Part shown: positions 15,801 through 43,901 of the stretch, piece by piece
How positions within the stretch are numbered: the stretch's first letter is position 1
How the letters are laid out: every line of letters starts with the position of its first letter
From: Geothrix sp. 21YS21S-4
Lineage (GTDB): Bacteria; Acidobacteriota; Holophagae; Holophagales; Holophagaceae
Length of the DNA stretch: 64,000 nt
NCBI RefSeq assembly: GCF_030845995.1
Contig: NZ_CP132719.1
Coordinates: 1,302,001 to 1,366,000, forward strand
Direction of reading: 5' to 3'
Made by a program: the position numbers and the translations under genes
The notes under the pieces: model-generated
What the model saw: the letters and a program-made list of their open reading frames with translations, nothing else
Database searches by the model: none
Told to the model about the DNA's origin: nothing

Positions 15801-18800
15801 GTGGCAGTTCATTCCCGGAACCACGACGGTGACCCATCACAATGGCCAGTACGTCGGCGCGTCTACCCAGTACGACGGTCGCGGCCGCGTGACGGGGACG
15901 ACGGACGCGAACGGGATCCCGGTGGAGACCGTCTATGGGCCTGGGACGGTGCGGACGGTGACCGTGGGCGCGGGCACGACGGATGCGCGGACGACGCGGT
16001 ACGAGAACGACGCGGCCGGGCGCCTGGGCCGGGTGACCGACGCCCTGGGCCAGGGAACCCTCTACCGCTACGACGGCGGAGACCGCCTGAAAGAGGTGCG
16101 GCAGGCCGACGCGGCGGGCCGGGAGCAGGTGCGGACCTGGACCTACAACGGCCTGGGCTGGCTGACGGGGCTGCTGCAGCCCGAAAGCGGATCCACCACC
16201 TATTCGGACTTCACGGTGGCGGGAAAGCCCACCACCACGAACTATGCAGGGCGCCTCGTCCGAATGACGCCGGACTGGATGGGCCGGCCCCTCTCCGTCA
16301 CGTCCGATGACGGGACGGTGAGTCAGGTTCTCAGTTACGACACGGCCTTGGGCGGCCTGGGGAAGCTGGCGAGCAGCCAGGATGGAACGGTGACCACGGC
16401 CTTCGGCTATGGCGGCCGGGGAGGGCGGCTCGACAATCTGCAGACGACGGTCCGGGGCCAGGCATTCACCCAGACGTTCACCTACGACGAGTACGGGCAG
16501 CGGACCGGAGGGAACACGGGGCATGCGCCGTGGAGCCAGACCTACCATTCGGAAACGGGCCTTCCCAAGCAGCTCACCTACAACGGGAGCCTAGTGGCAG
16601 ATACCCCATGGGGCCAGTACGATCCCATCAGCTGGGCGATCCGGAGCATCCGCTACGGGAACCAGGCGGTGAGCAGTTTCGACTACGGGGCGGATCAGGC
16701 GCGACTGACCCAGATCGTGCACAGCCCGGCAAGCGGAGGTCCCCTGGCCCAGTGGGTCTACACCTACGACCAGGTGGGGAATCTGACGCGGGAGTCGGAC
16801 CTGACGACGGGATCCTTCGACCAGTATCGCTACGACAGCCTGAACCGGCTGGTGGAAGCCCTGGTGCAGAGTCGGGACTTCGGGGATCAGCTCCAGACGT
16901 TCGGATATGACGCGTTCGGGAACCGGACTTCGACCCAGATCCTGGCGGTACTGGGATGGAGCGGCGCTCGCGGAGGAGAGGACTCGATACCAAGCACGAC
17001 CACTTCGCCGCTGCTGGGCGCGGCGGGGCGGGACGTGGTGAACGTGAGCTTCGATCCCGCGTCCGCGGCGCTGGTTCAGAAGAACCAGATGCCGGCGGCG
17101 ACGGCGGGAGGCGCACTGACCGGGGCGGTCTACGACGCCCAGGGGAACCTGATCCAGGTGTTCAAGAAGCCCGGTGACGCCGCTACGGCGCTGACGATGG
17201 CCTACGACGCGCTGGGCCGGGTGACGTCCCTGGGGCGCCCGGACGGGACCTCCGAACGCTACGCGTACACCGCGGAAGGCCTGAGGAGCCTGGTGGAGGA
17301 ATGGCAGGGATCGACCCTGGTGAAGCGGAAGTACAACCTCTACAACGATGGGCGCCAGTTGGTGGGGCAGTACGAGGAGAGCTTGAGCGGGGGCGTGGTG
17401 CCCGCGGGGACGCAGGCCCTGGCGGCGAAGACGTCCGCCGCGAAGAGCCTGGCCTCGACGACCAAGTCCACAGCGGGCACGGCATCCATCGGGACGAATC
17501 CGGTGATCACGTCGCCGTCGGGTCCGATTACGGTCCGCGTAGGAGAGGCCGTGTGGTTCAGCGGCAGCTCGCCGGATGGAAATGGAGGCTCCTGGGCCTT
17601 TGGCGACGGAGGAACGGCGAGCGGATGGAGCGCCAGCCACGCCTACGGCGCCGCGGGGACGTATACGGCCATGCTGACGACGCAGGTGCCGACCAATGGG
17701 AAGTGCGTCAGCTGGGGATGGGACGATCAGGGAAATCGGGTGTGCAACCAGTACCAGACGACGTGGGTGGCGGAGTCCACCACGGTGACGATCACGGTGC
17801 TGCCGAATGCCCCGTCGATCGTGAGCTTCACGGCGAGCCCGACGACCATCGCGATCGGAGGAAGTTCGACGCTGAACTGGAATGTGTCTGGGGCGAGCAG
17901 CGTGACCTTGTCCGGAGGCGGCGTGGGAGCCAGCGGCGGGCAGGCGGTGTATCCGTCCTCGACGACGAGCTACACGCTGGTGGCGACGAATGCGGGAGGA
18001 ACCACCAGCGCCACCATCACGGTGAATGTGGTGCAGGCTCCTGTCATTTCGTGGTTCACCGCGAGCCCAGGAACGATCTATCAGGGCGACGGAAGCACAT
18101 TGAGCTGGGGCGTGAGCAATGCGACCGGTCTCACCCTCGACCAGGGGATCGGAAGCGTGATCGGAACGAACAGTAGGTGGGTGAGTCCGAGTGGAACGAC
18201 GACCTACACGCTGACGGCGACGAACAGCCTGAACGGGGTGAGCGTCACCCGAACTGCCGGCGCCACGGTGACGGTGAATCCGAGGCCGACGGTGCCGACG
18301 ATCACGGCGTTCTATGCGGATCCCGCGACCATCGGCGTTGGAAATGGAACCACGCTGAGATGGAATGTCACCAACAGTGTGGGAGATGTGACGGTGACGC
18401 TGTCGGGAAGCAGCGTGCCCGCCAGCGGCTCGATGTGGGTCGTGCCGGGAACAAGCACCACTTATACCCTGACGGCGACGAACAACCTGGACCCGAGCAA
18501 GTCGGTGACCGCAAGCGCAGCGGTGACGGTGATCCAGAAGCCGGTTATTTCGTTCAGTGCGAGCCCGACGAGCGTGAATGTGGGGAACAGCACGACGCTG
18601 AGCTGGAGCGTTACGAACAGCCCGACCTCCGTGGTGATCGACAATGGAATCGGAAATGTCGGAGCATCGGGAAGCTTGGGGGTGACGCCCCTGTCGAATA
18701 CGACCTACACGATCACGGCGAGCAACCTGGGAGGCACGACCAGTGCCCAGGTGAGCATCTCCGTGACGCAGAAACCCGTGATCGTGAGCTTCACGGCCAG

Positions 18801-19995
18801 CCCGAGCGGCATTACCAAGGGGCGCAGCTCGACACTTGCCTGGGTCGTTCAGGGGGCGGATTCGATCACTCTGAATGGGCAGGCCATGAGCACGAGCAGC
18901 CTCGTGGTAGCTCCCGCGAGCACTCAGATCTACACTCTCGTGGTGAATAACAGTGCAGGGGCAGACAGCGCTCAGGTGACGGTCACCGTCACGGAGAGCG
19001 GAACGCTGACTTGGAAGCGGGACATCCTGTATCTGGGAACAAGAGAGGCTGCGGAGATCGATGCAGCGGGCATGCATGTCACGATGGTCGATCACTTGGG
19101 AAGTCCGCGGATTGTGACAGGGCCAACAGGGCAGGTGGAATCCCGGCAGAAGTACCTGCCGTTCGGGGAACTGTTGGATCAGAGCGGATCCAGCTACATC
19201 ACTTCCAAGGGCTACACGAACCACGAGCAGACGGATACCTCGGGATTGATCTACATGCAGGCGCGGTTCTACATGCCGTGGACGGGAAGGTTCACCAGCC
19301 CCGATCCAGCTCGGGATCAGCATTTCGAGGACACGCAGAGCTGGAACATCTATAGCTATGTGCGGAACAGTCCGATCTTGAATACCGATCCCACGGGCAT
19401 GGAGATGGCCATCAACGCGCCGGCCCAAGAGGGTGCGGATGCTGATCAATGGGGAGCGCAAAAGGCGGATAATGAAAACAAGGCAAAGATAGCTTCCGAT
19501 GGAATCGCGCATACAAACAAAGACACCTATCAAAGCAAATCTGGCGATGTTGTTACCTCAATCCTGAATGGTGATTTCAAAGGGGCAGTGAGAAATTTAC
19601 TTCAAGCTTGGGGCTTGGCAGTCAAGGACCCGGAATGGGTAGCGGGAGCCGCTTTGGCAACAGCCGCTCCATTCATGGGAGCAGAAGCGGCCGCCGCCAA
19701 GGGTGTTGGGGGTGCGGAAGCAGCAGAGGTTACGGCAGCCGCCAAAGGTGCCCCAAAACCATCACCTCAATTTGAAACTCCTACGAATCCAGCGCAACCT
19801 CCTCCTACCAGCCTTCCTGAAGGTCATTCGGTCCGAGTCATGCCGGGGACAAAACAATATCCGAATGGCTATTGGGTCCAGACGAATGCAAATGGGCAAC
19901 CGGTAAACCCAGCTACCGGGAAACCACCAGCGAATGTGACGAGACCACAAGCGAGAGCCCAGGTCCATGTTCCACTCCCCCCGAAGATTGATTAG
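12844..19995 (+). CDS. Sec-exported RHS/YD-repeat polymorphic toxin-like protein with PKD and Ig-like array
   Basis: A 2383-residue exported protein. The N-terminus ([23 protein letters not shown] from residue 5) is a Sec signal peptide; an ATG at 12856 is an alternative start. A SpvB/RHS-like N-terminal region follows, then YD repeats from about 810 to 1550 (for example [10 protein letters not shown]-type units). A PKD-like segment is at about 1570-1650, and five Ig-like repeats of 75-90 residues at about 1655-2055 (each with a xVISFxASPxxI opening). The RHS core is at about 2059-2190 ([42 protein letters not shown]). The last 190 residues are a unique tail ending HVPLPPKID, expected to be the effector domain; I cannot name its activity. 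No VgrG, PAAR or T6SS gene is in the window, so export looks Sec/WapA-like. A small gene follows after 7 bases. Confidence 0.93.
18134..19440 (+). repeat. Direct repeat of Ig-like/RHS core, copy A (inside the intact RHS gene)
   Basis: Matches 20748-22054 at a constant offset of 2614 bases with no indels and few substitutions. It covers three and a bit Ig-like repeats and the whole RHS core up to DPTGM. Shorter parts match copies C (22972 on) and D (24643 on). Confidence 0.9.
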
Positions 19996-20002
19996 GAGTT
20001 AA

Positions 20003-20362
20003 GTGGTGTACAAACTCTCTCCCGACATTGATCTCTCATTCCTTCTCGGAATCGACCTATTGCAGGTGTGTGTTGGCAAGAATGAAGTGATTCTGAACTT
20101 TACTGACGATGTCAGGATCACGCTCTTGTCGGAATTCTTAATTAAGGAGGCCGATCAGGAACTCGTCACCTTCCATGAGACCAGTGATGGTGCGCAAGCC
20201 CTGGTCAGAATGCTGAATGATGAGATTGAGCACGCTAAGGCTACCAAGGAGGGAGGGCTTCTGATTGCCTTCCGTTCTGGAACAACCCTAGGGATTCCAG
20301 ACACGAGCGAAGTATACGAGTCATTCTGGATCTCAAAAGGAGAACGGCAAATCATTGTTTAA
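20003..20362 (+). CDS. Candidate immunity protein for the intact RHS tail (module 1)
   Basis: A 119-residue acidic soluble protein with no signal peptide or membrane segment, rich in beta-type residues (LSFLLGIDLLQVCVG, EVILNFTDDVRITLL). It begins 7 bases after the RHS stop with AGGAG upstream; GTG at 20003 or the adjacent GTG at 20006 (better spaced) is the start. The position directly after the variable RHS tail is where immunity genes occur in polymorphic-toxin loci. Its soluble nature would suit a cytoplasmic target such as a nuclease-type tail. I do not recognise the family with confidence. Confidence 0.65.
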   Translation: MVYKLSPDIDLSFLLGIDLLQVCVGKNEVILNFTDDVRITLLSEFLIKEADQELVTFHETSDGAQALVRMLNDEIEHAKATKEGGLLIAFRSGTTLGIPDTSEVYESFWISKGERQIIV

Positions 20363-20547
20363 CGCGGCATGTGAGGTTGCGATTCTGGGAATTATTAACT
20401 GATTCAGTCTCCTAGTAATACACCAGGGAAAGTGTTAATCAATCAAGAGGCCTCACTGCCCTCGTAAAAAATAGGTATTTTAACCAAATAACCACGGGCT
20501 ATTGAATCTGTTGTGTAATTTTAAAAATTTTACCAAGTGGAACAACG

Positions 20548-20643
20548 ATGGATGAATTGGAGACAGAATTTGAACCTTCAAGAATGGTAATAATAGAGAC
20601 AATAGAGACGCAACCAGAAAAAGCTCCAATCATAGTAAAATGA
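20548..20643 (+). CDS. Possible 31-residue ORF between modules 1 and 2
   Basis: An ATG-to-TGA frame of 31 codons encoding an acidic peptide (MDELETEFEPSRMVIIETIE...). A weak GGAAC lies upstream. Composition is AT-rich like the module tails. It may be chance or the remnant of a displaced tail. The rest of 20363-20734 is AT-rich with no other gene. Confidence 0.25.
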   Translation: MDELETEFEPSRMVIIETIETQPEKAPIIVK

Positions 20644-20734
20644 GATCCCATAGATCACAATTTTGTTCTTATAGTCTCTCGGTTTTGGGAGATTTCGATG
20701 TGAATCTGGGCAAAGCTTTTCGGTATATGGGGAA

Positions 20735-22645
20735 ATGCATTCCCTTTCCCTCGATCAGGGGATCGGAAGCGTGATCGGAACGAACAGTAGGTGGGTGAGT
20801 CCGAGTGGAACGACGACCTACACGCTGACGGCGACGAACAGCCTGAACGGGGTGAGCGTCACCCGAACTGCCGGCGCCACGGTGACGGTGAATCCGAGGC
20901 CGACGGTGCCGACGATCACGGCGTTCTATGCGGATCCCGCGATCATCGGCGTTGGAAATGGAACCACGCTGAGATGGAATGTCACCAACAGTGTGGGAGA
21001 TGTGACGGTGACGCTGTCGGGAAGCAGCGTGCCCGCCAGCGGCTCGATGTGGGTCGTGCCCGGAACAAGCACCACTTATACGCTGACGGCAACGAACAAT
21101 CTGGACCCGAGCAAGTCGGTGACCGCAAGCGCAGCGGTGACGGTGATCCAGAAGCCGGTTATTTCGTTCAGTGCGAGTCCGACGAGCGTGAATGTGGGGA
21201 ACAGTACGACGCTGAGCTGGAGCATCACCAATAATCCGACCTCGGTAACGATCGACAATGGGATCGGAGGGGTGGGGGCATCCGGATCGTTGGCCGTGAC
21301 GCCGCTGTCGAATACGACCTACACGATCACGGCGAGCAACCTGGGAGGCACGACCAGTGCCCAGGTGAGCATCTCCGTGACGCAGAAACCCGTGATCGTG
21401 AGCTTCACGGCCAGCCCGAGCGGCATTACCAAGGGGCGCAGCTCGACACTTGCCTGGGTCGTTCAGGGGGCGGATTCGATCACTCTGAATGGGCAGGCCA
21501 TGAGCACGAGCAGCCTCGTGGTAGCTCCCGCGAGCACTCAGATCTACACTCTCGTGGTGAATAACAGTGCAGGGGCAGACAGCGCTCAGGTGACGGTCAC
21601 CGTCACGGAGAGCGGAACGCTGACCTGGAAGCGGGACATCCTGTATCTGGGAACGAGGGAGGCCGCGGAGATCGATGCGACCGGCATGCACGTGACAATG
21701 GTCGATCATCTTGGGAGCCCGAGGATCGTGACCGGACCGACGGGGCAGGTGGAATCCCGGCAGAAATACTTGCCCTTCGGAGAACTGCTCGACCAGAGCG
21801 GATCGACCTACATCAGCTCGAAGGGCTATACGAATCACGAGCAGACGGATACCTCGGGATTGATCTACATGCAGGCGCGGTTCTACATGCCGTGGATGGG
21901 GAGGTTCGCCAGTCCCGATCCGGCAAGGGACCAGCATTTCGAGGACACGCAGAGCTGGAATATCTATAGCTACCTGCGGAACAAGCCGATCATGAGCACC
22001 GATCCCACGGGCATGGAAGAGGCCATCAATGCGCACGCCCGAAAGGGTGCGGATAATGATGAAAGAGGGTTACAGGACGACGATACTCATAAGAAAAGAA
22101 AGAAAGCTGAGGTTGATAAGGGGCGGCCAAAAAGTACCAATGATGGTGCGCCTAAACCAGCCCCCGGAATAATTCCGCCAGGAGGGAAAGCACCCTCATT
22201 AACCCCAGTTACTCCTTCGGAAGACAAATCAGCAAAGCCGCAAGCACCAGTAAAGCCAAAAACCCCAGAAAAAGAGTCTGGAGGAATTCATGCTGGCGTA
22301 TTCGGTTTTGGAGGAGTTGAAGCTGACGGGGCTGTGGCGGGATTTTTTCATGGAGCGATACATGAAATCGACACAGCTGAAGGGCATAGCACAGGCCTAT
22401 TGACAGAGGCGTGGGGCGGCGGTGAAGTGGCGGTTCTAGGTGGTGGCAAGATCACTACTGTTGAAAATGTAAAAAGTGGAGGAGTCTTGAGTGGAGGGTT
22501 TGTTTTTGGAGGTGCTAGCCTAAGTGCCGGGCCGCTCGCAGGTACTCAGCTTGGGATAGTGAGTGGGCCTGGTTGGATAGGAGTTTATTGGGAGGGGCAT
22601 GCCGGACCTGGCGCTGTGGGGGGTGGAGGGTACATTAGATGGTAA
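20735..22645 (+). CDS. Displaced RHS C-terminal module 2 (Ig-like repeats, core and distinct Gly-rich tail)
   Basis: A 636-residue open frame lacking signal peptide and YD repeats. It starts at an ATG (20735) with only a weak GGGGA upstream and enters the RHS sequence in the middle of an Ig-like repeat. Residues 5-435 match the intact protein nearly exactly (copy B of the repeat). After DPTGM the tail diverges: a linker (EEAINAHARKGADNDERG, shared with modules 3 and 4), a Lys/Pro-rich stretch, then about 110 Gly-rich residues (HAGVFGFGGVEADGA ... AVGGGGYIRW). It could be a silent tip that replaces the module 1 tail by recombination, or could be translated alone. The toxin activity is unknown. 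Confidence 0.75.
   Translation: MHSLSLDQGIGSVIGTNSRWVSPSGTTTYTLTATNSLNGVSVTRTAGATVTVNPRPTVPTITAFYADPAIIGVGNGTTLRWNVTNSVGDVTVTLSGSSVPASGSMWVVPGTSTTYTLTATNNLDPSKSVTASAAVTVIQKPVISFSASPTSVNVGNSTTLSWSITNNPTSVTIDNGIGGVGASGSLAVTPLSNTTYTITASNLGGTTSAQVSISVTQKPVIVSFTASPSGITKGRSSTLAWVVQGADSITLNGQAMSTSSLVVAPASTQIYTLVVNNSAGADSAQVTVTVTESGTLTWKRDILYLGTREAAEIDATGMHVTMVDHLGSPRIVTGPTGQVESRQKYLPFGELLDQSGSTYISSKGYTNHEQTDTSGLIYMQARFYMPWMGRFASPDPARDQHFEDTQSWNIYSYLRNKPIMSTDPTGMEEAINAHARKGADNDERGLQDDDTHKKRKKAEVDKGRPKSTNDGAPKPAPGIIPPGGKAPSLTPVTPSEDKSAKPQAPVKPKTPEKESGGIHAGVFGFGGVEADGAVAGFFHGAIHEIDTAEGHSTGLLTEAWGGGEVAVLGGGKITTVENVKSGGVLSGGFVFGGASLSAGPLAGTQLGIVSGPGWIGVYWEGHAGPGAVGGGGYIRW
20748..22054 (+). repeat. Direct repeat of Ig-like/RHS core, copy B
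   Basis: Second copy of 18134-19440, collinear without gaps. The left edge is abrupt at CCCTCGA(T/C)CAGGGG; the right edge is just after DPTGM, where the tails diverge. Confidence 0.9.
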
Positions 22646-22872
22646 TCGGGACGGTAATGGAGTCACCTTCAAGGAGTGGGTATCCGGGGATGCCACTCAT
22701 CCTTATTTATGTATGTTTAAGTTTATTTGTGGTGATTAGGTGTGTACTGCAGGTTTACAAGATTCGACGGGGAACCGTACTTTGGGAAGATGCTCGTCGC
22801 TATATCTTAATTGGAAGTGTTGCGCTACTTTTGTTTTTTATAGCTCTATGGTCAATTTGGGTTCATCGTTAG
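22639..22872 (+). CDS. Candidate immunity protein for module 2, two membrane segments
   Basis: A 77-residue protein overlapping the end of module 2 by 7 bases. It has hydrophobic helices at about residues 18-37 (MPLILIYVCLSLFVVIRCVL) and 53-74, with a basic loop between. A membrane immunity protein would suit a tail that acts on membranes or in the periplasm. No family is recognised. Confidence 0.55.
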   Translation: MVIGTVMESPSRSGYPGMPLILIYVCLSLFVVIRCVLQVYKIRRGTVLWEDARRYILIGSVALLLFFIALWSIWVHR

Positions 22873-22953
22873 CTCTATAGTCGTCAATCTTAAGTGCAAA
22901 TTTTTATTATTTTACGAAATCTTCCCCTGATCTTATCTGGATGCTAAAAAGAT

Positions 22954-23970
22954 GTGAGAGACTCAAATAAGGGCACGCTGACCTGGAAGCGGGACATCCT
23001 GTATCTGGGAACGAGGGAGGCCGCGGAGATCGATGCAGCTGGCATGCACGTGACAATGGTCGATCATCTCGGGAGCCCGAGGATCGTGACCGGACCGACG
23101 GGGCAGGTAGAATCCCGGCAGAAGTATCTGCCGTTCGGGGAACTGTTGGATCAGAGCGGATCCAGCTACATCATTTCCAAGGGCTACACGAACCACGAGC
23201 AGACGGATACTTCGGGATTGATCTACATGCAGGCGCGGTTCTACATGCCGTGGATGGGACGGTTCACGTCCCCCGATCCCGCCAGAGACCAGCACTTCGA
23301 GGACACGCAGAGCTGGAACATCTATAGCTACGTGCGGAACAAGCCGATCATGAGCACCGATCCCACGGGCATGGAAGAGGCCATCAATGCGCACGCCCGA
23401 AAGGGTGCTGATAATGATGAAAGAGGATTACAGGACGACGATACCCAAAAGAAAAGAAAGAAGGCTGAGGTTGATAGGGGACGGCCAAAAAATACCAATG
23501 ATGGAGAGCCTAAACCAGGGACAAAGATGATCCCTGCAGGAGGCATTGCTCCATCATTAACTCCCGGTAGTTTCCAGCCACTTATGCCTGCTACAACTCA
23601 ATCTGTCTCAAATGATTCTGCCTCGACAAATGCAGCAACAATTTCAACTGCTATAAAAGCGACATCTCATACTTTAAAAATTGTGGCATCGATGGGAGAT
23701 GGGCCAGTCGCAAAAGCTGCTGGATCCGCCGGTAAAGTGGCACCAATTGCTAGCATTTTGGGAGACATTAATAGTGCTAATGCGGGGAATATGACCAAAG
23801 CTCAGGTGGCAACAAATGCTGGAATAACAGCGATTCTATATGGTCTTGGAAAAGCCGCAGGGGCTGAAGTTGCTAGTTTTGCGGGTCTTATAGTTAGTGA
23901 AATTAAATGGGCAAACCAACAGATAGAGGATTTTGCAAAAACTTTTCCCACTCAATTTACTCCGAGGTAG
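22954..23970 (+). CDS. Displaced RHS C-terminal module 3 (core and distinct tail)
   Basis: A 338-residue frame from a GTG at 22954. The RHS core matches from residue 7 ([20 protein letters not shown]) to DPTGMEEA, with no Ig-like repeats in front. The linker after the core matches module 2 to about 23517. The last 140 residues differ: Ser/Thr-rich, then hydrophobic Ala/Gly-rich segments (NAGITAILYGLGKAAGAEVASFAGLI) and an end KTFPTQFTPR. The hydrophobic tail together with a multi-membrane-segment neighbour suggests, by inference only, a membrane-active toxin. No signal peptide, so it is probably silent unless recombined onto the main gene. Confidence 0.7.
   Translation: MRDSNKGTLTWKRDILYLGTREAAEIDAAGMHVTMVDHLGSPRIVTGPTGQVESRQKYLPFGELLDQSGSSYIISKGYTNHEQTDTSGLIYMQARFYMPWMGRFTSPDPARDQHFEDTQSWNIYSYVRNKPIMSTDPTGMEEAINAHARKGADNDERGLQDDDTQKKRKKAEVDRGRPKNTNDGEPKPGTKMIPAGGIAPSLTPGSFQPLMPATTQSVSNDSASTNAATISTAIKATSHTLKIVASMGDGPVAKAAGSAGKVAPIASILGDINSANAGNMTKAQVATNAGITAILYGLGKAAGAEVASFAGLIVSEIKWANQQIEDFAKTFPTQFTPR
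22972..23517 (+). repeat. Direct repeat of RHS core, copy C
   Basis: Matches module 2 at offset 1358 from 21614 on. Unlike the module 1/2 match it continues past DPTGM through the shared linker before diverging. Confidence 0.85.
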
Positions 23971-24017
23971 TGATAAATATTTAAATTTATTTCATAAATT
24001 CAAAAGGTGTTGACAGT

Positions 24018-24488
24018 ATGGCGACAATTAATTCCTCTCCTCCTATCTGCTCCCCCTCGGAAGGTATTCCTCCTCATAAGACCACTATTATAGCAATTAT
24101 TAGATGTATTGGTATATTTTGCTTGATGTATTTATGCCTATTGGTATTTATCTATATATGTATGTATATTACTGATTGGCGATCGACTAACGTTAATATG
24201 CCTGTAATTCTTCTTTCGGCAATTACGGCTAAATTTGATTTCAATAAAAAATATTCAAGACTCTTCTCCATTTCGGAGTTTAAAAAAATATTTATATCTA
24301 CTTTTGTTTTTGATTGTGGACTTCAGTATATTCTCTTGATGATTGGAACGGGCTGGGATTTTTCAAGAATTAATTTGGGAATTTATGAGATATTAACTAT
24401 ATGCTTTTCGCATGCTTTTATAATTTTTATTGGCTTTTTTCCATGGTCTCGTTTAGACGTAAAAAGAGATTCTGAAAAAACTAAATAA
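24018..24488 (+). CDS. Candidate immunity protein for module 3, multi-pass membrane protein
   Basis: A 156-residue protein, very AT-rich, with AAAAGGTG before the ATG. About four hydrophobic segments are seen (near 24-50, 60-70, 92-112 and 123-143) with basic connecting loops and C-terminus. It lies 47 bases after module 3. Immunity proteins against pore-forming toxins are often of this type. No family is recognised. Confidence 0.6.
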   Translation: MATINSSPPICSPSEGIPPHKTTIIAIIRCIGIFCLMYLCLLVFIYICMYITDWRSTNVNMPVILLSAITAKFDFNKKYSRLFSISEFKKIFISTFVFDCGLQYILLMIGTGWDFSRINLGIYEILTICFSHAFIIFIGFFPWSRLDVKRDSEKTK

Positions 24489-24592
24489 TTTAATGGCAAA
24501 TAAATCATTGTGGATAGATTAAATCTCTCGCGTCTGATTTTTGACAATCGATTTTCCTGCTTTTATTTGATTTCAGAAATCTCGACTTCTTT

Positions 24593-25552
24593 GATGATGG
24601 AGGGAGGGCGAGCGGATAGAACGCCAGTCACCCTACGGTACCGCGGAGATCGATAGCCGCAGGCATGCATATTACGATGGTGTGTCACTTGGGAAGGCCG
24701 AGGACGTGATAGGGCCAACAGGTTAGGTGGAGTCGAGGCAGAAGTATCTGCCCATTTGGGGAACTGCTGGATCAGAGCAATTCCAGCTACATCAGCTCGA
24801 AGGGCTACACGAACCACGAGCAGACGGATACCTCGGGATTGATCTACATGCAGGCGCGGTTCTACATGCCGTGGATGGGAAGGTTCACCAGCCCCGATCC
24901 AGCTCGGGATCAGCATTTCGAGGACACGCAGAGCTGGAATATCTATAGCTACGTGCGGAATAAGCCGATCATGAGTACCGATCCCACGGGCATGGAAGAG
25001 GCCATCAATGCGCACGCCCGAAAGGGTGCGGATAATGATGAAAGGGGATTACAGGACGACGATACTCAAAAGAAAAGAAAGGAAACTGAAAGGACCCGGA
25101 CAAATACGGCGGTCGCCGGAAGTGTTGGAGCAGTTGCAACTCGAAGTTTGGTAGCCCAATTTGGTTCATGGCTGATGGGAGCGCTTAACACTGCTGGAAC
25201 GGCAGTAGTCCCTTATGTAGCCGCATTACTTATGGTATCCGATGCATCGCCGGCGGCATTGGCCCAACAGAAGGCAAAGGAAGCCAATGCGGATGCGGCA
25301 AAGAAAGGTGACACGAAAGAGGGCAGTGATGAGACAGGAAAAACAACGAAGGAAATAAAAGAACGAAAAACTCCAGGAAGAGATGGCGGTAAGTCTGAGC
25401 ATATTATTGAGAAAGAAGATGGGCAGACAATTTCGAAAACACACCGGGTAACAAAGGATGGCGAGATTGTTCATCAGCACCAGGATCATGTAGGCAAAAG
25501 TGGCACTATTCGCCGGTTTCCTGATGAGTGGACTGGGACCAAAACCAAGTAA
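24593..25552 (+). pseudogene. Displaced, decayed RHS C-terminal module 4 with nuclease-like tail
   Basis: The first 50 bases (24593-24645) match the PKD segment of the intact gene (about 17600-17655) and then jump, at the shared CGCGG, straight to the RHS core (19050 on). The core copy has a TAG (24725-24727), a one-base insertion near 24750 and several substitutions, so it is broken upstream. From about 24750 the frame is open to 25552 and reads [16 protein letters not shown] through DPTGMEEA and the shared linker. The tail has an Ala-rich hydrophobic segment and a His/Lys-rich end (GEIVHQHQDHVGKSG, RRFPDEWTG) that looks nuclease-like, though I cannot name a family. Confidence 0.75.
24643..25075 (+). 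repeat. Direct repeat of RHS core, copy D (degenerate)
   Basis: Matches the core copies with frameshift and stop mutations in its first 110 bases, then closely from about 24780 through the shared linker. Confidence 0.8.
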
Positions 25553-25569
25553 GGAGAGAGGAGTGAATC

Positions 25570-26028
25570 ATGCTGACAGAACAATTATCTAACGCTCTCT
25601 ACACATTAGTTGATCCATCTATAGTTATTGGTAATAACGCCAAAACGTTAATTGAGGCCATACTTGTCGTTGAAGACAACCAATTAACTAAAGATATATT
25701 GAATTATTTGCTCGAAATGCATAAAAAACCTTTTATATCAGTAGTGGAAGTCAATAAATTGAGAGCCATGCTCTTTTTTACCTCGTACCCTTTGTTTGAT
25801 ACTCCGCGCTTAATTAAATTGGGGTTTTCTTTGATGGCATCCAAAATTGATACTAAAGCTGTGATGGAAAGGTTGGCTGAAATTGGAGAAGTGGAAAGGC
25901 GAGCGCTCCCCGAAAACGTACAGAACCTTCTCCAAGAGATCGGCTTCATTGTTGAAGATGCATCCGAAGGCTTTGGGGATATTGAAATTCCTGCAACATT
26001 TGCTATTGATATAATTGCTACATTTTAG
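25570..26028 (+). CDS. Candidate immunity protein for module 4
   Basis: A 152-residue soluble, mostly helical protein (many Leu/Ile/Glu) with no signal peptide. A strong ribosome site (AAGGAGAGAGGAG) precedes the ATG, and it lies 17 bases after module 4. The intact frame and strong site contrast with the decayed module 4 core, as expected if immunity is kept after the toxin tip is displaced. No family is recognised. Confidence 0.6.
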   Translation: MLTEQLSNALYTLVDPSIVIGNNAKTLIEAILVVEDNQLTKDILNYLLEMHKKPFISVVEVNKLRAMLFFTSYPLFDTPRLIKLGFSLMASKIDTKAVMERLAEIGEVERRALPENVQNLLQEIGFIVEDASEGFGDIEIPATFAIDIIATF

Positions 26029-26189
26029 GCTGTTGAAGCTTGAGAAGAAGGAGCGAATCTCTTTTGTGATTTCTCGTAATCACCCCTCATGCACATGTCT
26101 TTCACGAGGATTGCGGCGAGGTACCCCATGGCAATGACTGTAATGACCCAGTGAAAAGCTGCTCAGGGGATACTCCAAAGGAGACCCCC

Positions 26190-26504
26190 ATGAGTGGAGC
26201 CATGGAAGACGAGATCAAACGATGGACGGCACGCCGGAAGGCGGCATTGGTGCTGGAGATCATCCAGGGGAAGACGACGGTGGCGGAAGCCAGCCGGGCC
26301 TTCGACCTTCCCCCCTCGGAGATCGAGGGATGGATGGAGGATGGCAAACGCGGCATGGAGAACGCGCTGCGGACGAAGCCCCTGGAGGTGAAGGAGCAGT
26401 ACGAGCGTCAGCTCAAGGATCTCCAGGAGGCTTATGGTGAGGCGATGCTGGAGCTGCGCGCCCGAAAAAAAGCGGCGTCCCTGCTGGGCGAGGACGAGAA
26501 GTGA
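26190..26504 (+). CDS. IS-A transposase OrfA
   Basis: A 104-residue helix-turn-helix DNA-binding subunit (KRWTARRKAALVLEIIQGK, then VAEASRAFDLPPSEIEGWM) with a C-terminal leucine-rich helix. AAAGGAG precedes the ATG. A run of seven A residues (26465-26471, read A AAA AAA) lies just before the overlap with orfB, which is in the -1 frame. This is the classic arrangement for programmed frameshifting to an OrfAB fusion transposase. Confidence 0.88.
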   Translation: MSGAMEDEIKRWTARRKAALVLEIIQGKTTVAEASRAFDLPPSEIEGWMEDGKRGMENALRTKPLEVKEQYERQLKDLQEAYGEAMLELRARKKAASLLGEDEK

Positions 26505-27307
26505 TCGCCGCGGTCCGGCAGGGACTGAAGGACGAGGGGGTCACCATCCCTCTCAGCCGCTTTTGTGAATGGTTCGAGGTGCCGAGGCGGACGATGTACT
26601 ACCGCTCCCGAAAGAAGCCGCCCGTTCTCCAGGACCGCTTCGTCCGGCCTATCAAGGCGCTCATCGAGCAGGAGCCTTCCTATGGCTATCGCACGGTGGC
26701 CCACCTCCTCGGTTTCAACAAGAACACCGTCCAGCGGGTGTTCCAGCAGATGGGCTGGCAGGTCCGCAAGCGGCCGACGGGCTTCCGTCCCCGCGTGGAG
26801 GTCAAGCCCTCCATTGCCGCCGCGCCGGACCAGCGTTGGGCCACGGATCTCTGCCGGATCTGGACCGGACGGGACGGATGGGCCGTCCTCGCCCTCGTCA
26901 TCGACTGTTGCACCCGCGAACTGCTTGGCTGGCACCTCTCCCGATCCGGCAAGTCCAGGACCGCCGAGGCTGCCCTGGAGCAGGCCCTCATCACCCGCTA
27001 CGGCACCCTGGGCCGCGTGGCCGAACCTTTCCTCCTTCGCTCGGACAATGGCCTCGTATTCACCTCTCGCAGCTACACCGCCCTCGTCCGCAGCTACGGC
27101 CTCCGCCAGGAATTCATCACACCCCATACCCCCGAGCAGAATGGCCTCTGCGAACGGGTCATCCGCACCCTCAAGGAGCAATGCGTCCACCACCACCGCT
27201 TTGAAACCCTCCAGCACGCCTCCCGTGTCGTCGGCGACTGGATCTGACGTGCCCCCGAGAAGTAGGTCCAGCGAGAATGAGCTTGCCCCCGTCCAAAGGA
27301 GGACAAG

Positions 27308-27574
27308 TTGCAGGCCAAACGATTTTCAGAGGAACAGATCATTCGAGCCTTGAAAAGGCATGAGGCTGGAGAGAAGGTTCCGGATTTATGCCGGGATTTG
27401 GGGATCTCCAAACAGACATTCCATCGATGGAAGGCGAAGTTTGGGGGGATGGAGGTCTCTGACGCCCGTCGACTGAAGCAATTGGAGCAGGAAAATGCGC
27501 AGCTACTGCGGCTCCTGGGGAAGCGGGAATTGGAGATTGAGGGGATGAAGCACCTCCTCTCAAAAAAATGGTGA
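27308..27574 (+). CDS. IS-B transposase OrfA
   Basis: An 88-residue HTH protein ([39 protein letters not shown]) with a leucine-zipper-like C-terminus ending LSKKW, as in IS407/IS51-group OrfA. A run of seven A residues (27562-27568, A AAA AAA in the orfA frame) overlaps the orfB start in the -1 frame, suggesting frameshift production of OrfAB. Confidence 0.92.
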
Positions 27575-28458
27575 GGTCCGGCGCACGAAAGCAGGCCGTT
27601 CGAGATCTGGTGCAAGGCCGGTTCGTGAGCGAGCGCCGGGCCTGTATCCTGCTGGGGGTCACGCGGTCGGCCTATCGTCGACCGAGCAGTTGCGTGGACT
27701 GGACGGAGCTACGCAAGCGCCTGATAGAGCTGGCGGGAGAGCGCAAGCGGTTCGGCTATCGGCGGCTGCACATGCTGCTTCGCCGGGAGGCTTTCTCCGT
27801 GAATGTGAAGCGGATCTACCGGCTCTACAAGGAGGAGGGTCTGTCGGTTCGAAAACGGATTCGAAAGCGGCTAAAGGGGGGCATGCGGAGAGATCTGCGC
27901 GTTCCGGCCCGGCCGAATGAGCAATGGGCCATGGACTTCACCTCGGATGCACTGGCTGATGGCCGTTCGATCCGGACGCTGAACGTTGTGGATATCTTTA
28001 CGCGGGAATGCCTGGCCATCGAGGTAGACACAAGCCTTCCTAGCCTTCGGGTGGCTCGGGTGTTGGAACGGATCATTGATGAGAGGGGCCGCCCAGAGCT
28101 CCTCGTTACGGACAATGGCCCCGAATTCACCAGTCGAGTCTTCGACCAGTGGCGCCACCAACAAGGCATCGAGCACCATCTCATCCAACCCGGAAAGCCG
28201 ATGCAAAACGGAACATGCGAAAGATTTAACGGACGGTTCAGAGATGAATGCCTCAACGAGCACTGGTTCGCCAGCCTACGAGAAGTTCGAATCATCACGG
28301 AAGCCTGGCGCCATGACTACAATCACTACAGGCTCCACGGACCTCTGGGCGGTATTACCCCCATCGAAGCAGCGCGTCGGTGGGATTCACTCCAGTCGCC
28401 TACGGCTCCTTCCGCGAATCCCACCGAGATCCTTTTCAACCCAGTAGGCTCATCCTGA
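27568..28458 (+). CDS. IS-B transposase OrfB (DDE)
   Basis: A 296-residue catalytic subunit. The rve-type DDE core shows [18 protein letters not shown] and [16 protein letters not shown], preceded by the [17 protein letters not shown] block typical of the group. The ATG at 27568 lies inside the poly-A frameshift site. The ORF is complete, ending about 26 bases before the right end of the element. Confidence 0.93.
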
Positions 28459-28595
28459 TTGGACCTAATCTGGGGGGCACGTCAGATCCACTTCTACAAC
28501 CACGAGCGCCCCCACCAGGCCCTTGGCATGAACACTCCCCGTCAGACCTACCTGCTTAACAACCAATCCTGAGCAGCTTTCACTGGGTCATTACA

Positions 28596-29051
28596 TACCA
28601 GCCTACCGAGCCTTCGGGTGACAAGGGTGTTGGACCACGTCATTGAGGAACGGGGGCGACCTGAACAGGTGCTGACGGACAATGGGTCTGAGTTCATCAG
28701 CAAAGCGTTTGATCAATGGAGTCATCAGCGCGGTATCCATCACCACTTCATCCAGCCGGGAAAGCCGATGCAGAACGGAACCTGCGAGAGCTTCAACGGA
28801 CGTTTCAGGGATGAGTGCCTCAATGAACACTGGTTCTCCAGCCTCTGGGAGGCGAGAGCCATCACAAAAGCTTGGATGGATGATTACAATCATCGAAGAC
28901 CCCACAGCGCCCTCGGTGGGCTTCCACCCGCCGTCGCCGCGCGCCGATGGGATTCACTCCGGTCGCCTACGGCTCCCTCCGCGAATCCCATCGAGATCCT
29001 TTTCAACCCCACAGGCTCACTCTGATTGGACCTATTGTGGGGGGCACGTCA
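28596..29051 (+). mobile_element. IS-C: 3' remnant of an IS-B-like element
   Basis: Begins at the IS-A right end and reads as the last 136 or so residues of an IS-B-type OrfB ([36 protein letters not shown], ending NPTGSL at 29025). The right inverted repeat GGGGGGCACGTCA then ends at 29051. It is clearly related to but diverged from IS-B at the DNA level. Its left half is absent on the far side of IS-A, so the element was deleted rather than simply interrupted. Confidence 0.85.
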
Positions 29052-29217
29052 GTCTAATTATCAGGGAACACTACATTCAGCGGGGACGGAATATCTGTTT
29101 ATGGGCAAAGGGAGGAAGGCGACCAGCGTGCTGATCGCCTTCCTCGAATCTCAGCCCAACCCCGACTCCTTCCTATATTTGCTGCTGGAACTGGATGGGC
29201 TTTCAGGGGCTGACTAA

Positions 29218-30342
29218 TTAGTATGGATGATAAATGCCTTTAATGGTGGTATTGGTGGTATAGTCTGGTAGACGCTTAATTGTCCAGGAACCACCCACGC
29301 CAGTATTTATGGGAGTGCCTGATGATTCAGCCTTCATATTGAGGTAAGGCCAAATTCCCAATTCAGCCAGCTCTTCTTCGGTGGGTTCTCCATAAAAGTC
29401 GCGCCTTAAAGATGCATTGGTTCTATCTGGGGTAAATCCGGGTAGAATCGGCGCGATATTTGTAAAAGAAACGGACCCATCCCCGATTTCTTGTGGCTTC
29501 CCGGGTAATTGAGTGTTAAGAGTAAATGTGCGTTCCTCTCCAACGTTAGGTAAATATGATAATAGCGAATAATCTTGAGATGTTACAGGGAAATTGGGCT
29601 CTGTCCATTCAAGGTATTCTGAAGAATCGAGCCTTGCGCCATCACAGGTTCCCGCACTATGAAAGTATAAGGAACCAGAACCAATGGATACGTTTATCCT
29701 ATGGATACCTCGCGACAAAGTGATCTTCTTTGTGATATGAGCATTGCTGCCATATGAATTCTCATAATTAAATACCAGAGGCTGTGAACCGTCCTCATTA
29801 CACCTGAAAATTTTTGCCATGCTGGTTGGGTGATCAATATCTCCGGGGAAATAAAAATCAAAATAATAATCAGAGGTTGTTGGAATATATACAAAATATT
29901 CGCGGGATTGAACGTTGTTTTGACTTGCTATTGCAAGCAATGTTTGGGCCATTAATACATATCCAACACCAGAAATAACTCCGGTAAGCATTTGGCCGTA
30001 GTAGGCGCCAGCATAGGCGCCATAATATGTTCCATAGTATTGGGTGTAGTAGGCGGTAACCCACTCACGAACTTGATTGACAGCAGCATCTCGAAGAAGC
30101 GGACTATATGCAGATTTTATGACTTCAATTGCATAAAAATTCGAGCTAAGCCCTGCTGTCACTTGGGTGGGACTTAGTAGGGGAAGATCCATCCTCTTAA
30201 CTCGGAAATTTGCATTTCCAGCTAAGGTCAAATTGATCTTGTAGTAGCCTCTAAGATCCTCCGTAGGATGACTTTGGGCCACCAATAATGAACATAAGGT
30301 CAAGGAAAATAGCCCTGAAATGTATTTTAGGCCTAGCATCAT
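29218..30342 (-). CDS. Exported protein of unknown function with Tyr/Gly-rich segment
   Basis: A 374-residue protein. A Sec signal peptide covers about residues 1-22, and AGGAGGACA precedes the tandem ATGATG start. Around residues 95-120 there is a striking Tyr/Gly/Ala-rich stretch (YYTQYYGTYYGAYAGAYYG) followed by a hydrophobic segment. The C-terminal 200 residues look beta-rich. Base composition is more AT-rich than the chromosomal genes to its right, so it may belong to the RHS/IS accessory region. I do not recognise a family. Confidence 0.7.
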   Translation of the reverse strand: MMLGLKYISGLFSLTLCSLLVAQSHPTEDLRGYYKINLTLAGNANFRVKRMDLPLLSPTQVTAGLSSNFYAIEVIKSAYSPLLRDAAVNQVREWVTAYYTQYYGTYYGAYAGAYYGQMLTGVISGVGYVLMAQTLLAIASQNNVQSREYFVYIPTTSDYYFDFYFPGDIDHPTSMAKIFRCNEDGSQPLVFNYENSYGSNAHITKKITLSRGIHRINVSIGSGSLYFHSAGTCDGARLDSSEYLEWTEPNFPVTSQDYSLLSYLPNVGEERTFTLNTQLPGKPQEIGDGSVSFTNIAPILPGFTPDRTNASLRRDFYGEPTEEELAELGIWPYLNMKAESSGTPINTGVGGSWTIKRLPDYTTNTTIKGIYHPY

Positions 30343-30673
30343 CTGTCCTCCTGTAAACTTCGGATGATATCAAAGCAGAAAATTGGGTCCCCAGACATCG
30401 TTATTCACGATGTTGTGATGCGAATCACAGGGGTAATTGGATTTTATTCCCGCGATGCTGCTTGATCACAGGCGAGGGAGTTGATAGGTCCCTAGTGAGA
30501 GATGAATCGAAGATAGATTTAATATCAATTCTGCGCGTTTAGGAACTCCTGGAATTCGAGGGAGGTTCCCTTTTAGAGCCGTAAGAATTGAACTGATTGG
30601 ACTGGCTGAAGGTTCAAGCACTCCGGCCAATGACCGGAGGTACCCCAGACACAACAAACATGCCCTTGAGTCC
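30343..30673. other. Intergenic stretch with no recognised feature
   Basis: It separates the accessory region from the chromosomal genes. Apart from the ribosome site of the leftward gene I see no gene, RNA or clear terminator. Confidence 0.5.
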
Positions 30674-31588
30674 TCAATTTCTCTCCTTCACTTCGTTCTT
30701 CACCCCGGACACCACGTGCCCCGTAGGCCCCACTTTGGCGGCGGTGTCGCAGTAGCCGGGTTGGTCGTCGAAGAAGAAGTCGGGTTCGAATTCGCGGAGG
30801 AAGTCGGCTTTGTCGAGGCCGCCGAGGAACATGGCTTCGTCCACTTGGATGTTCCAGGCCATGAGGGTGCGGATGGGGCGCTCGTGGGCGGGGACGCTGC
30901 GGGCGGTGACGAGGGCGGTGCGGAGGCGCATGGGCGCGTCGGCGGCCATCTCCTGAAGGGGTTGGAGGGCCTGGAGGAGCGATTTGAAGGGCCCCGCCGG
31001 GAGGGGGACCGCGGCCCGTTCGATCTCGTAGGCCTGGAAGGCGGCGAGGCCGCCTTCGGCGTAGATGCGCTCGGCCTCGTCGCCGAACAGGACGGCGTCG
31101 CCGTCGAAGGCGATCCGAATCTCGTCGGGATGGCGGTCGGCGGCGGTGGCGCTGTCCGGATACACGCGGGCCGCGGCGAAGCCCGCCTGGAGCGCGGCGC
31201 GGACGTCCTTCTCCTGGGCGGAGAGGAACAGCGTGGCGCCCAGCGACCGAAGGTACGGGAAGGGATCCCGGCCGCGGGTGAACACGCCCCGCTCGATGGG
31301 AAGCTCCGCGGCGAGGGCGCTGCGGAAGGCCCGCATCCCGCTCACGGGATCATTGCGCGACAGGATCACCACCTCCACCCGCTGCTGTCCGCCGGTGTTG
31401 AACGCGAGGAGCTTCTTCACCAGCGGGAAGGCGACGCCGGGGCGGGCGGGCTGGTCCAGCCGCTCCAGCTGGAGCTGCATGTAGGGCCGATCGTCCCCCT
31501 CCTCGAATACCCGGTTCTCCTCCTCGAAATCGAAGAGCGCGCGGGAGGAAATCGCGACGACGAGCTTGCCTGCGAGGGACCGGGACAT
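30674..31588 (-). CDS. 5'-nucleotidase (NT5C1-like)
   Basis: A 304-residue cytoplasmic protein resembling the cytosolic 5'-nucleotidase I family, which removes phosphate from nucleoside monophosphates. Family blocks seen: LVVAISSRALFDFEEENRVF at the N-terminus, VVILSRNDP, RIAFDGDAVLFGDEAERIY (HAD-like catalytic region) and EPDFFFDDQPGYC. No signal peptide. It is divergent from the cysteine desulfurase-like gene, with 53 bases between the two starts, and its ribosome site is weak. Confidence 0.85.
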   Translation of the reverse strand: MSRSLAGKLVVAISSRALFDFEEENRVFEEGDDRPYMQLQLERLDQPARPGVAFPLVKKLLAFNTGGQQRVEVVILSRNDPVSGMRAFRSALAAELPIERGVFTRGRDPFPYLRSLGATLFLSAQEKDVRAALQAGFAAARVYPDSATAADRHPDEIRIAFDGDAVLFGDEAERIYAEGGLAAFQAYEIERAAVPLPAGPFKSLLQALQPLQEMAADAPMRLRTALVTARSVPAHERPIRTLMAWNIQVDEAMFLGGLDKADFLREFEPDFFFDDQPGYCDTAAKVGPTGHVVSGVKNEVKERN

Positions 31589-42810: not shown

Positions 42811-43836
42811 TCAGAGCCGGTCGAAGCGGATGATCTCCACTTTTCCGGCCTTGCCCTTGGGGGCTTCCTCGCGGTCGCGTTCCCGCGGGGCGCGCTCGGG
42901 GCGGGATTCCGACCGCGATTCGTGCGAGGGGCGGGACTCGCTCCGCCGGGGCTCGGGGGCGGGTTCGGGCCGCGGCGCGGGCTTGGGGGGAAGGGCGGCG
43001 GGCTGGCGCTCGCGGCCCGCCCACACGGCGCCCACCTGCTTGACGCGGTCCACGAGGCGCGTGGGTTCCAGCACCTGGATCCCGTCGCCGAACTGCATGG
43101 CCCAGCGGGCGATGGCGCGGAGGTCCGTGGCGGTGAAGGAGACCAGCGCCTGGCCGTCGCCCTGCTCCTCGATCTTGAAGTGGGGGAAGGCGGGGGGCGC
43201 CTGCTTGATGGCGAAGACCCACTGCTTCAGCAGCGTGGCCTTCACGGCGATGGGCTCGCCGCCCAGCCAGCCGCCGATCTGATTGGCGGGCGTTCCCTCG
43301 GGGTAGGGCCCCTGGGCCGCGCGGCCGACGCCCTCCACCGCGTTCACCTCGGCGAGCAGATCCACCCGGTGGTGGCGCTCGGCGTTGTAGCGGCGGTCCC
43401 AGCCCCACACGAACCACGCCTGGCTGAGCGCGTCGAAGGTGAGCTGGCGCGGCTCGAAGGTGCGGGGCGCGTTGGCGTCGCCGTCCGCGAAGATGAACTC
43501 CACGGCTCGGCCCTCGCGGATCGCCGCCAGAAGAGCCTCCACCAGGGCGGACGGGGCCGTCGCGGCGACGGGCTTGGGAGCGGCCACCGCTTCCGGCACG
43601 GGAGCGGGCACCGGCAGGGGGGCGGCGGATTCGGACGGGGCGGAAACGGGCTCGACGACCGGCTCTTCGGGCTTCGCCTTGCCCTTCGCGGCGCGGGTCT
43701 TCGGGGCGGGTTCGGAGGCACCGGCCTTCTTGGAAGCGGCCTTCTTCGCGGGCGCAGCCTTGGCCTTCGGCGCGGGCTGCTCTTCCTCCACGGCGGCGGT
43801 CACGGGCTTCTTGCGGGGGGTCTTGGTCACGGCCAT
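42811..43836 (-). CDS. WYL-domain protein with histone-H1-like N-terminal tail
   Basis: A 341-residue protein. Residues 1-95 are Ala/Lys/Pro-rich and disordered-looking (KAAPAKKAASKKAG), like bacterial histone-H1 tails. Then comes a WYL-type domain (about 97-165: LLAAIREGRAVEFIFADGD, WFVWGWDRRYNAERHHRVD) and a WCX-like domain (about 185-265: ARWAMQFGDGIQVLEP). The C-terminal 70 residues are Arg/Glu/Pro-rich. WYL proteins usually carry an HTH at the N-terminus to read DNA; here the basic tail takes its place, suggesting non-specific nucleic-acid binding gated by a WYL ligand. AGGAG precedes the ATG. Confidence 0.82.
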   Translation of the reverse strand: MAVTKTPRKKPVTAAVEEEQPAPKAKAAPAKKAASKKAGASEPAPKTRAAKGKAKPEEPVVEPVSAPSESAAPLPVPAPVPEAVAAPKPVAATAPSALVEALLAAIREGRAVEFIFADGDANAPRTFEPRQLTFDALSQAWFVWGWDRRYNAERHHRVDLLAEVNAVEGVGRAAQGPYPEGTPANQIGGWLGGEPIAVKATLLKQWVFAIKQAPPAFPHFKIEEQGDGQALVSFTATDLRAIARWAMQFGDGIQVLEPTRLVDRVKQVGAVWAGRERQPAALPPKPAPRPEPAPEPRRSESRPSHESRSESRPERAPRERDREEAPKGKAGKVEIIRFDRL

Positions 43837-43901
43837 GGTGTCGAGGCTCCTGGGCCATCATCGCTGAAGGCGGGGTGGCTGTCAGCTGTCGCGTCTTCCC
43901 C

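Follow-up and report, generated by a model that had tools for sequence, protein, structure and literature searches.

A gene on the minus strand of the Geothrix sp. 21YS21S-4 chromosome encodes a WYL-WCX protein that lacks any detectable helix-turn-helix (HTH) domain, carries a long disordered tail at either end and closes with a strongly conserved peptide. It occupies positions 42811-43836 of the 64,000-nucleotide stretch of DNA analysed here, to which we refer as the window, and belongs to the core genes of a single bacterial family, the Holophagaceae. In a 2019 survey, more than 90% of WYL sequences contain an HTH (passages of PMC6789036), and the WYL domain is therefore mostly viewed as the part of a transcription factor that receives the input. 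Fusions of WYL to enzymes and other domains are, as such, already known (passages of PMC4012209 and PMC9964779); what is new here is that a WYL-WCX protein combines disordered tails with a conserved peptide at its end. No description of a tailed, HTH-less WYL-WCX family was present among the matches listed for open-licence PubMed Central texts. If a WYL-WCX protein free of a DNA reader is confirmed, it would offer a clean case for a WYL sensor role outside transcription factors, and the C-terminal peptide provides a direct handle for finding its partner.

Gene and domain architecture

The open reading frame runs exactly from 42811 to 43836 and encodes 341 residues plus a stop codon; the gene is real, and its host genome is a single 3.08-Mb contig. 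Pfam places a WYL domain (PF13280) at residues 99-164 with 30.9 bits against a cut-off of 21.8, and a WCX domain (PF25583) at residues 221-267 with 42.4 bits against a cut-off of 23.9, and no further family is matched in the protein up to an E-value of 1. Both domains are present in 34 of 34 family members scanned (WYL at E <=0.01), in which the only third family is Trypan_PARP (7/34), whose matches we take to be low-complexity matches. NCBIfam returned merely two matches, both at chance level, and PADLOC matched two generic WYL models that it catalogues as CRISPR-associated signalling (best 72.7 bits). A preliminary description made from the DNA alone had proposed a WYL domain with basic-rich tails instead of an HTH; this layout stands, but the description had omitted the WCX domain, the C-terminal peptide and the minus strand.

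Across relatives, 102 loci yielded 67 distinct proteins, 66 of which are complete at the N-terminus. The ratio dN/dS stays below 1 throughout the gene's four regions, rising from 0.054 in the last ten residues to 0.119 in the core, 0.236 in the C-terminal spacer and 0.343 in the N-terminal tail. These values are mean dN over mean dS for 299 of the 300 pairs of 25 proteins, with 277-299 pairs usable per region; the pairwise values depend on one another, and mean dS reaches 0.9 and 1.1 in the tails.

A core gene of the Holophagaceae

Orthologues, matched at E 2e-75 or better and with 63-95% identity in the core, were detected in 68 of the 77 family genomes searched, the genome of origin included, and the named relatives comprise Geothrix species and other Holophagaceae. 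Six family genomes gave no match at all: three small ones belong to one genus, and the other three to a second genus. Three further genomes of lower completeness (58-81%) gave weaker matches only. No orthologue was found in 16 genomes from two other families of the class. Sampling the phylum more widely (247 genomes, completeness of at least 85) gave 26 genomes with a match, and outside the family there were just four weak matches (E 3.7e-11 to 8.4e-4), three spanning 48-65 residues and one spanning 151. A search of genome contigs recovered 33 loci, all from Holophagaceae or unplaced Acidobacteria as judged by title. This distribution marks it as a core gene of a single family.

The genome of origin also encodes a WYL-WCX paralogue, at about 525 kb of the contig, which is 33% identical and has an HTH recognizable by eye. 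Further matches beyond the orthologue occur in 56 of the 68 orthologue-bearing genomes, leaving 12 without a second match. When seven of these 12 genomes (G052, G055, G056, G057, G059, G061 and G075; 90-97% complete) were searched with the WCX model, the tailed protein was the sole match in every one, a count that a divergent WCX beyond the model, or one in a missing part of a genome, would escape. In general, an HTH-bearing WYL-WCX partner is therefore not needed. A third WYL match in the genome of origin (L106:3736-5694, about 2.58 Mb) is in a protein of 653 residues that also has a Helicase_C_3 domain; scored as a whole protein, the match falls below the curated cut-off.

No detectable helix-turn-helix

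The preliminary description had reported the usual winged helix as absent, and we likewise found none in the sequence or in the model. None of the HTH models in Pfam matched any of the 34 members scanned. This is a weak test, because Pfam also reports no HTH in the same-genome WYL-WCX paralogue where one is visible by eye, and the argument is therefore carried by composition and structure models. Hydrophobic residues make up 13% of the N-terminal tail versus 31% of the core. Two AlphaFold models were available, with mean pLDDT values of 57.5 and 64.8, both weak overall and built from shallow alignments. Structure prediction, which had been suggested as a check for an HTH hidden in the tail, gave no secondary structure for residues 1-95, most of which have pLDDT <50. 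By model and composition, the winged HTH and the helical linker that characterize the DriD/PafBC class are thus absent from residues 1-95, and the N-terminal tail occupies the place that they hold in relatives of the same fold.

A WYL-WCX core with a partly conserved groove

The folded part of the protein comprises the WYL domain, an Sm-like barrel (residues 99-164; 43345-43542, minus strand), a connecting loop (residues 171-193; 43258-43326, minus strand) and the ferredoxin-like WCX domain (residues 196-272; 43021-43251, minus strand). The second model aligned to the PafBC WYL domain with Z 11.2 and rmsd 2.4 over 77 residues, and to the WYL domain of BrxR with Z 10.9. The first model matched the DriD C-domain (7tzv) with Z 11.4 over 155 aligned positions within residues 94-276, at an rmsd of 7.2; because this rmsd is high, the relative placing of WYL and WCX in the model is unreliable. 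In an alignment of 34 proteins the connecting loop contains many invariant residues (GRAAQGPY...IGGWLGG), and model confidence there is low.

According to passages of PMC11804915, binding of single-stranded DNA (ssDNA) by PafB needs R181, Y196, R204, R208 and R211/R214. We mapped these positions by profile alignment to chain 7p5x_AY, which we take to be PafB and whose numbering the six named residues fit. R181 and R208 correspond to R125 and R154, Arg in 67/67 proteins, and R211 to R157, Arg in 59/67, while Y196 corresponds to residue 142 (F142 here), occupied by Tyr in 41 and Phe in 26 of 67. Two of the ssDNA-binding arginines are lost: R204 is replaced by Y150 (Tyr in 67/67) and R214 by L160 (Leu in 57/67). 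Judged from these positions, the WYL groove is conserved in part and altered in part relative to PafB, and its ligand is likely to be a nucleic acid or a nucleotide. It is also plausible that the WYL core contributes no less than the tail to a link with nucleic acid, given its match to the DriD domain with bound ssDNA and its retention of some of the PafB residues.

Two tails and a terminal peptide

Residues 1-95 (43552-43836, minus strand) form the N-terminal tail, recognized by composition, model and orthologues. Its Ala/Lys/Pro-rich character, noted from the outset, is borne out by 26 Ala, 19 Pro and 14 Lys, next to 9 Glu, 2 Arg and no Asp. Comparison of homologues, an early proposal, revealed both tails in all 66 full-length distinct orthologues, the N-terminal one spanning 48-145 residues and the C-terminal one 50-103. 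Ala, Lys and Pro account for at least 50% of the N-terminal tail in 61/66 orthologues. Its net charge is positive in 66/66 orthologues, but spans +1 to +20 (sd 3.98) and is just +1 to +4 in 4 of 22 members from distant genera; the first 12 residues carry +2 to +4 in 65/66, a count that includes one protein with a misassigned start (L060). Pfam HC2 is not matched by the WYL-WCX protein.

Such a tail is more than a chance feature: within a 424-kb sample of the genome that includes the window, 3 of 270 crude gene calls, made by third-position G+C, have an A/K/P-rich 90-residue end, and the other two encode RNase E/G (L146:1915-4119), with an Ala/Lys/Pro-rich C-terminal tail, and indole-3-glycerol-phosphate synthase (contig positions 3008709-3010151; L155:8709-10151). 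The latter bears an extension of roughly 240 residues, the last 143 of which match the histone-H1-like family HC2 with 47.5 bits against a cut-off of 40, a match that puts a tail of nucleoid type on a biosynthetic enzyme.

The C-terminal tail behaves differently in its charge. Residues 277-341 contain 13 Arg and 10 Glu, in agreement with the Arg/Glu-rich end noted before, together with 13 Pro, 4 Lys and 2 Asp. Although the number of charged residues ranges from 16 to 61 across orthologues and length varies as well, net charge stays at +2 to +5 in 66/66, the 22 distant-genus members included. Its sd is 0.87, against 3.98 for the N-terminal tail, and against 5.76 for independent draws of the same composition, a null that ignores relatedness. 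Its Arg/Glu/Pro spacer, near balance in charge, spans residues 277-331 (42844-43008, minus strand) and is followed by the terminal peptide KVEIIRFDRL (residues 332-341; 42814-42843, minus strand).

A motif covering this peptide, written after the C-termini had been inspected, closes 67/67 distinct proteins. The form KVEVIRFDRL occurs in 28/67 and the rest are close variants, among them the GKIEIRIDRL and KVEIRIERL types from other genera; by dN/dS, the last ten residues are the most constrained part of the protein. Their hydrophobic pattern is mostly alternating. The models do not place the peptide confidently: in the second, a strand or bridge of two residues appears at 334-335 with pLDDT <50, and the first has no strand. 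A search of the genome of origin with up to 3 mismatches recovered the peptide in this gene alone; with 2 mismatches there were 3 matches, none stop-terminated, and 4 in a reversed control. We therefore rejected the idea of a motif common to other proteins of this genome.

The proposal of non-specific basic tails on a nucleoid- or RNA-linked regulator is supported only in part. The N-terminal tail is always net positive, but its charge varies widely. The C-terminal tail is close to balance in charge, and the conserved peptide at its end points to a specific contact.

Comparison with known systems

DriD, the Caulobacter HTH-3HB-WYL-WCX activator with ssDNA as its effector, shares the WYL-WCX core fold with the Holophagaceae protein. 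DriD has an HTH and a three-helix bundle, the latter contacting RNA polymerase according to passages of PMC12340889; the Holophagaceae protein lacks both and in their place has its two disordered tails and conserved C-terminal peptide. The mycobacterial heterodimeric regulator PafBC likewise has WYL and WCX domains in common with it, along with the PafB positions kept above, and differs in possessing an HTH, in its second WYL-WCX subunit, which is not obligatory here, and at the changed counterparts of R204 and R214. WCX is the dimer domain in both DriD and PafBC.

RspWYL1, the Cas13d accessory protein, is a WYL protein outside ordinary transcription control, as the present protein probably is too. 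Passages of PMC6547453 describe it as a homodimer held mainly via its C-terminal domain that binds single-stranded RNA (ssRNA) and a protein partner; its N-terminal domain is an ordered ribbon-helix-helix needed for ssRNA binding, unlike the disordered tail found here. The histone-H1-like tails of AlgP and PhaF share Lys/Ala/Pro-rich disorder with the N-terminal tail (passages of PMC9239181), whereas the latter is shorter, lies at the N-terminus and lacks regular KPAA repeats. For the C-terminal tail a design parallel exists in SSB, where a C-terminal tip sits on a variable linker.

Proposed mode of action and alternatives

The family appears to have retained the part of a DNA-damage-type regulator that senses nucleic acid, with tails and a conserved peptide in place of the part that reads DNA, and contact with a partner is therefore more probable than promoter reading. 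We propose, at a confidence approaching but not reaching even, that the protein acts on its own, probably as a dimer, to bind a single-stranded nucleic acid or nucleotide, with output via its tails and a docking peptide. It would be a housekeeping WYL-WCX protein that arose, by loss of the HTH and helical linker, from a regulator of HTH-WYL-WCX layout like DriD or PafBC. WCX would mediate dimerization, and the groove of WYL, turned towards WCX, would take the ligand, with an output other than promoter reading. Long flexible tails may tether the WYL-WCX dimer: the basic N-terminal tail would add weak, multivalent contacts with nucleic acid, and the C-terminal tail, balanced in charge, would be a spacer that offers the peptide to a partner protein, where it would probably dock as an extra beta-strand. 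The two lost PafB arginines, the weak models and the lack of an identified partner count against this dimeric-binder reading. By analogy with SSB, one may go further and picture a single-strand sensor freed from transcription throughout the family, in which a disordered arm of tuned charge with its conserved peptide, of the SSB kind, would bring another protein to single-stranded DNA or RNA, a possibility that we consider rather doubtful.

Other readings account for parts of the same evidence. The protein could be a non-specific nucleoid- or RNA-coating protein whose Lys-rich N-terminal tail binds DNA or RNA like the tails of AlgP or HC1/HC2 and is modulated by WYL. The positive charge of this tail in every orthologue, with +2 to +4 on its first 12 residues in 65/66, argues for this, as does the binding of DNA by AlgP-type KPAA tails (passages of PMC9239181). 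It is nevertheless unlikely: the tail's charge drops to +1 to +4 in 4 of the 22 distant members and is far more variable than that of the C-terminal tail, a metabolic enzyme of the same genome also bears a Lys-rich tail, and the conserved peptide is left unexplained. That peptide might instead pack in cis as a strand on the protein's own WYL/WCX sheet, at the site of the PafBC wing, with the tails as inert spacers. Its mostly alternating hydrophobicity, the short strand or bridge in the second model and the extension of the WYL-B sheet by the wing of HTH-C in PafBC (passages of PMC6789036) are consistent with cis packing, and the low pLDDT at the peptide and the strandless first model speak against it; we regard it as quite unlikely.

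An accessory role in RNA decay, with the protein binding ssRNA and docking to RNase E/G, would have its precedent in RspWYL1 with ssRNA and Cas13d (passages of PMC6547453), and the RNase E/G of this genome has a similar A/K/P tail. RNase E/G also divergently adjoins the gene in 5 of 64 loci, all of one other genus (L077, L072, L070, L071 and L076); elsewhere, however, xerD (53/64) or neither gene (6/64) lies upstream, so the adjacency looks incidental, the RNase E link is weak and such a role is very unlikely. Least credible of all is a heterodimer in the manner of PafB and PafC, in which the protein would pair via WCX with a WYL-WCX protein that does have an HTH and would so still act on promoters. 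The paralogue with its HTH and the further matches in most orthologue-bearing genomes would suit this arrangement, but the seven genomes in which the tailed protein is the sole WCX match refute it as a general rule, and we rejected an obligatory heterodimer on these grounds.

Upstream region and genomic context

A promoter-like site, CTGACA-17-GATGAT, lies upstream of the gene at 43857-43885 (minus strand; 1 found versus a mean of 0.0 in shuffles), followed by a Shine-Dalgarno-like AGGAG at 43847-43851 (minus strand), read directly and seen by eye in most of 65 upstream regions. A corresponding site precedes the ATG by 18-21 bases in 54/65 distinct genes, compared with 0/65 on the opposite strand, under an expression written after viewing those upstream regions. 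In most relatives it takes the form TGGACC, TGGACG or TAGACG, a spacing of 17-18 bases and a GATGAT-type element. The window species is among the 11/65 that do not fit the relatives' expression, and has its own form at the same place; an expression modelled on the window species fitted 6/65 only and was discarded. In three relatives (L005, L007 and L074) the promoter-like -35 element falls within short CTGACAG-type or CTGACGC-type repeats.

The xerD gene counted above lies on the same strand within 1.6 kb upstream, among the 64 proteins with enough upstream DNA, and the same 1.6 kb holds in the six loci with neither neighbour. The estimated gap between xerD and the gene is <=132 bp in only 19/53, and another open frame intervenes in 4 of 8 loci looked at by eye, so that a functional link to XerD is unsupported. 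The gene therefore looks like a unit of its own, with neighbours that are little informative. Elsewhere in the window, positions 18000-31000 have a G+C content of 0.41-0.62 per kilobase against about 0.62-0.72 on either side, a genomic-island-like profile.
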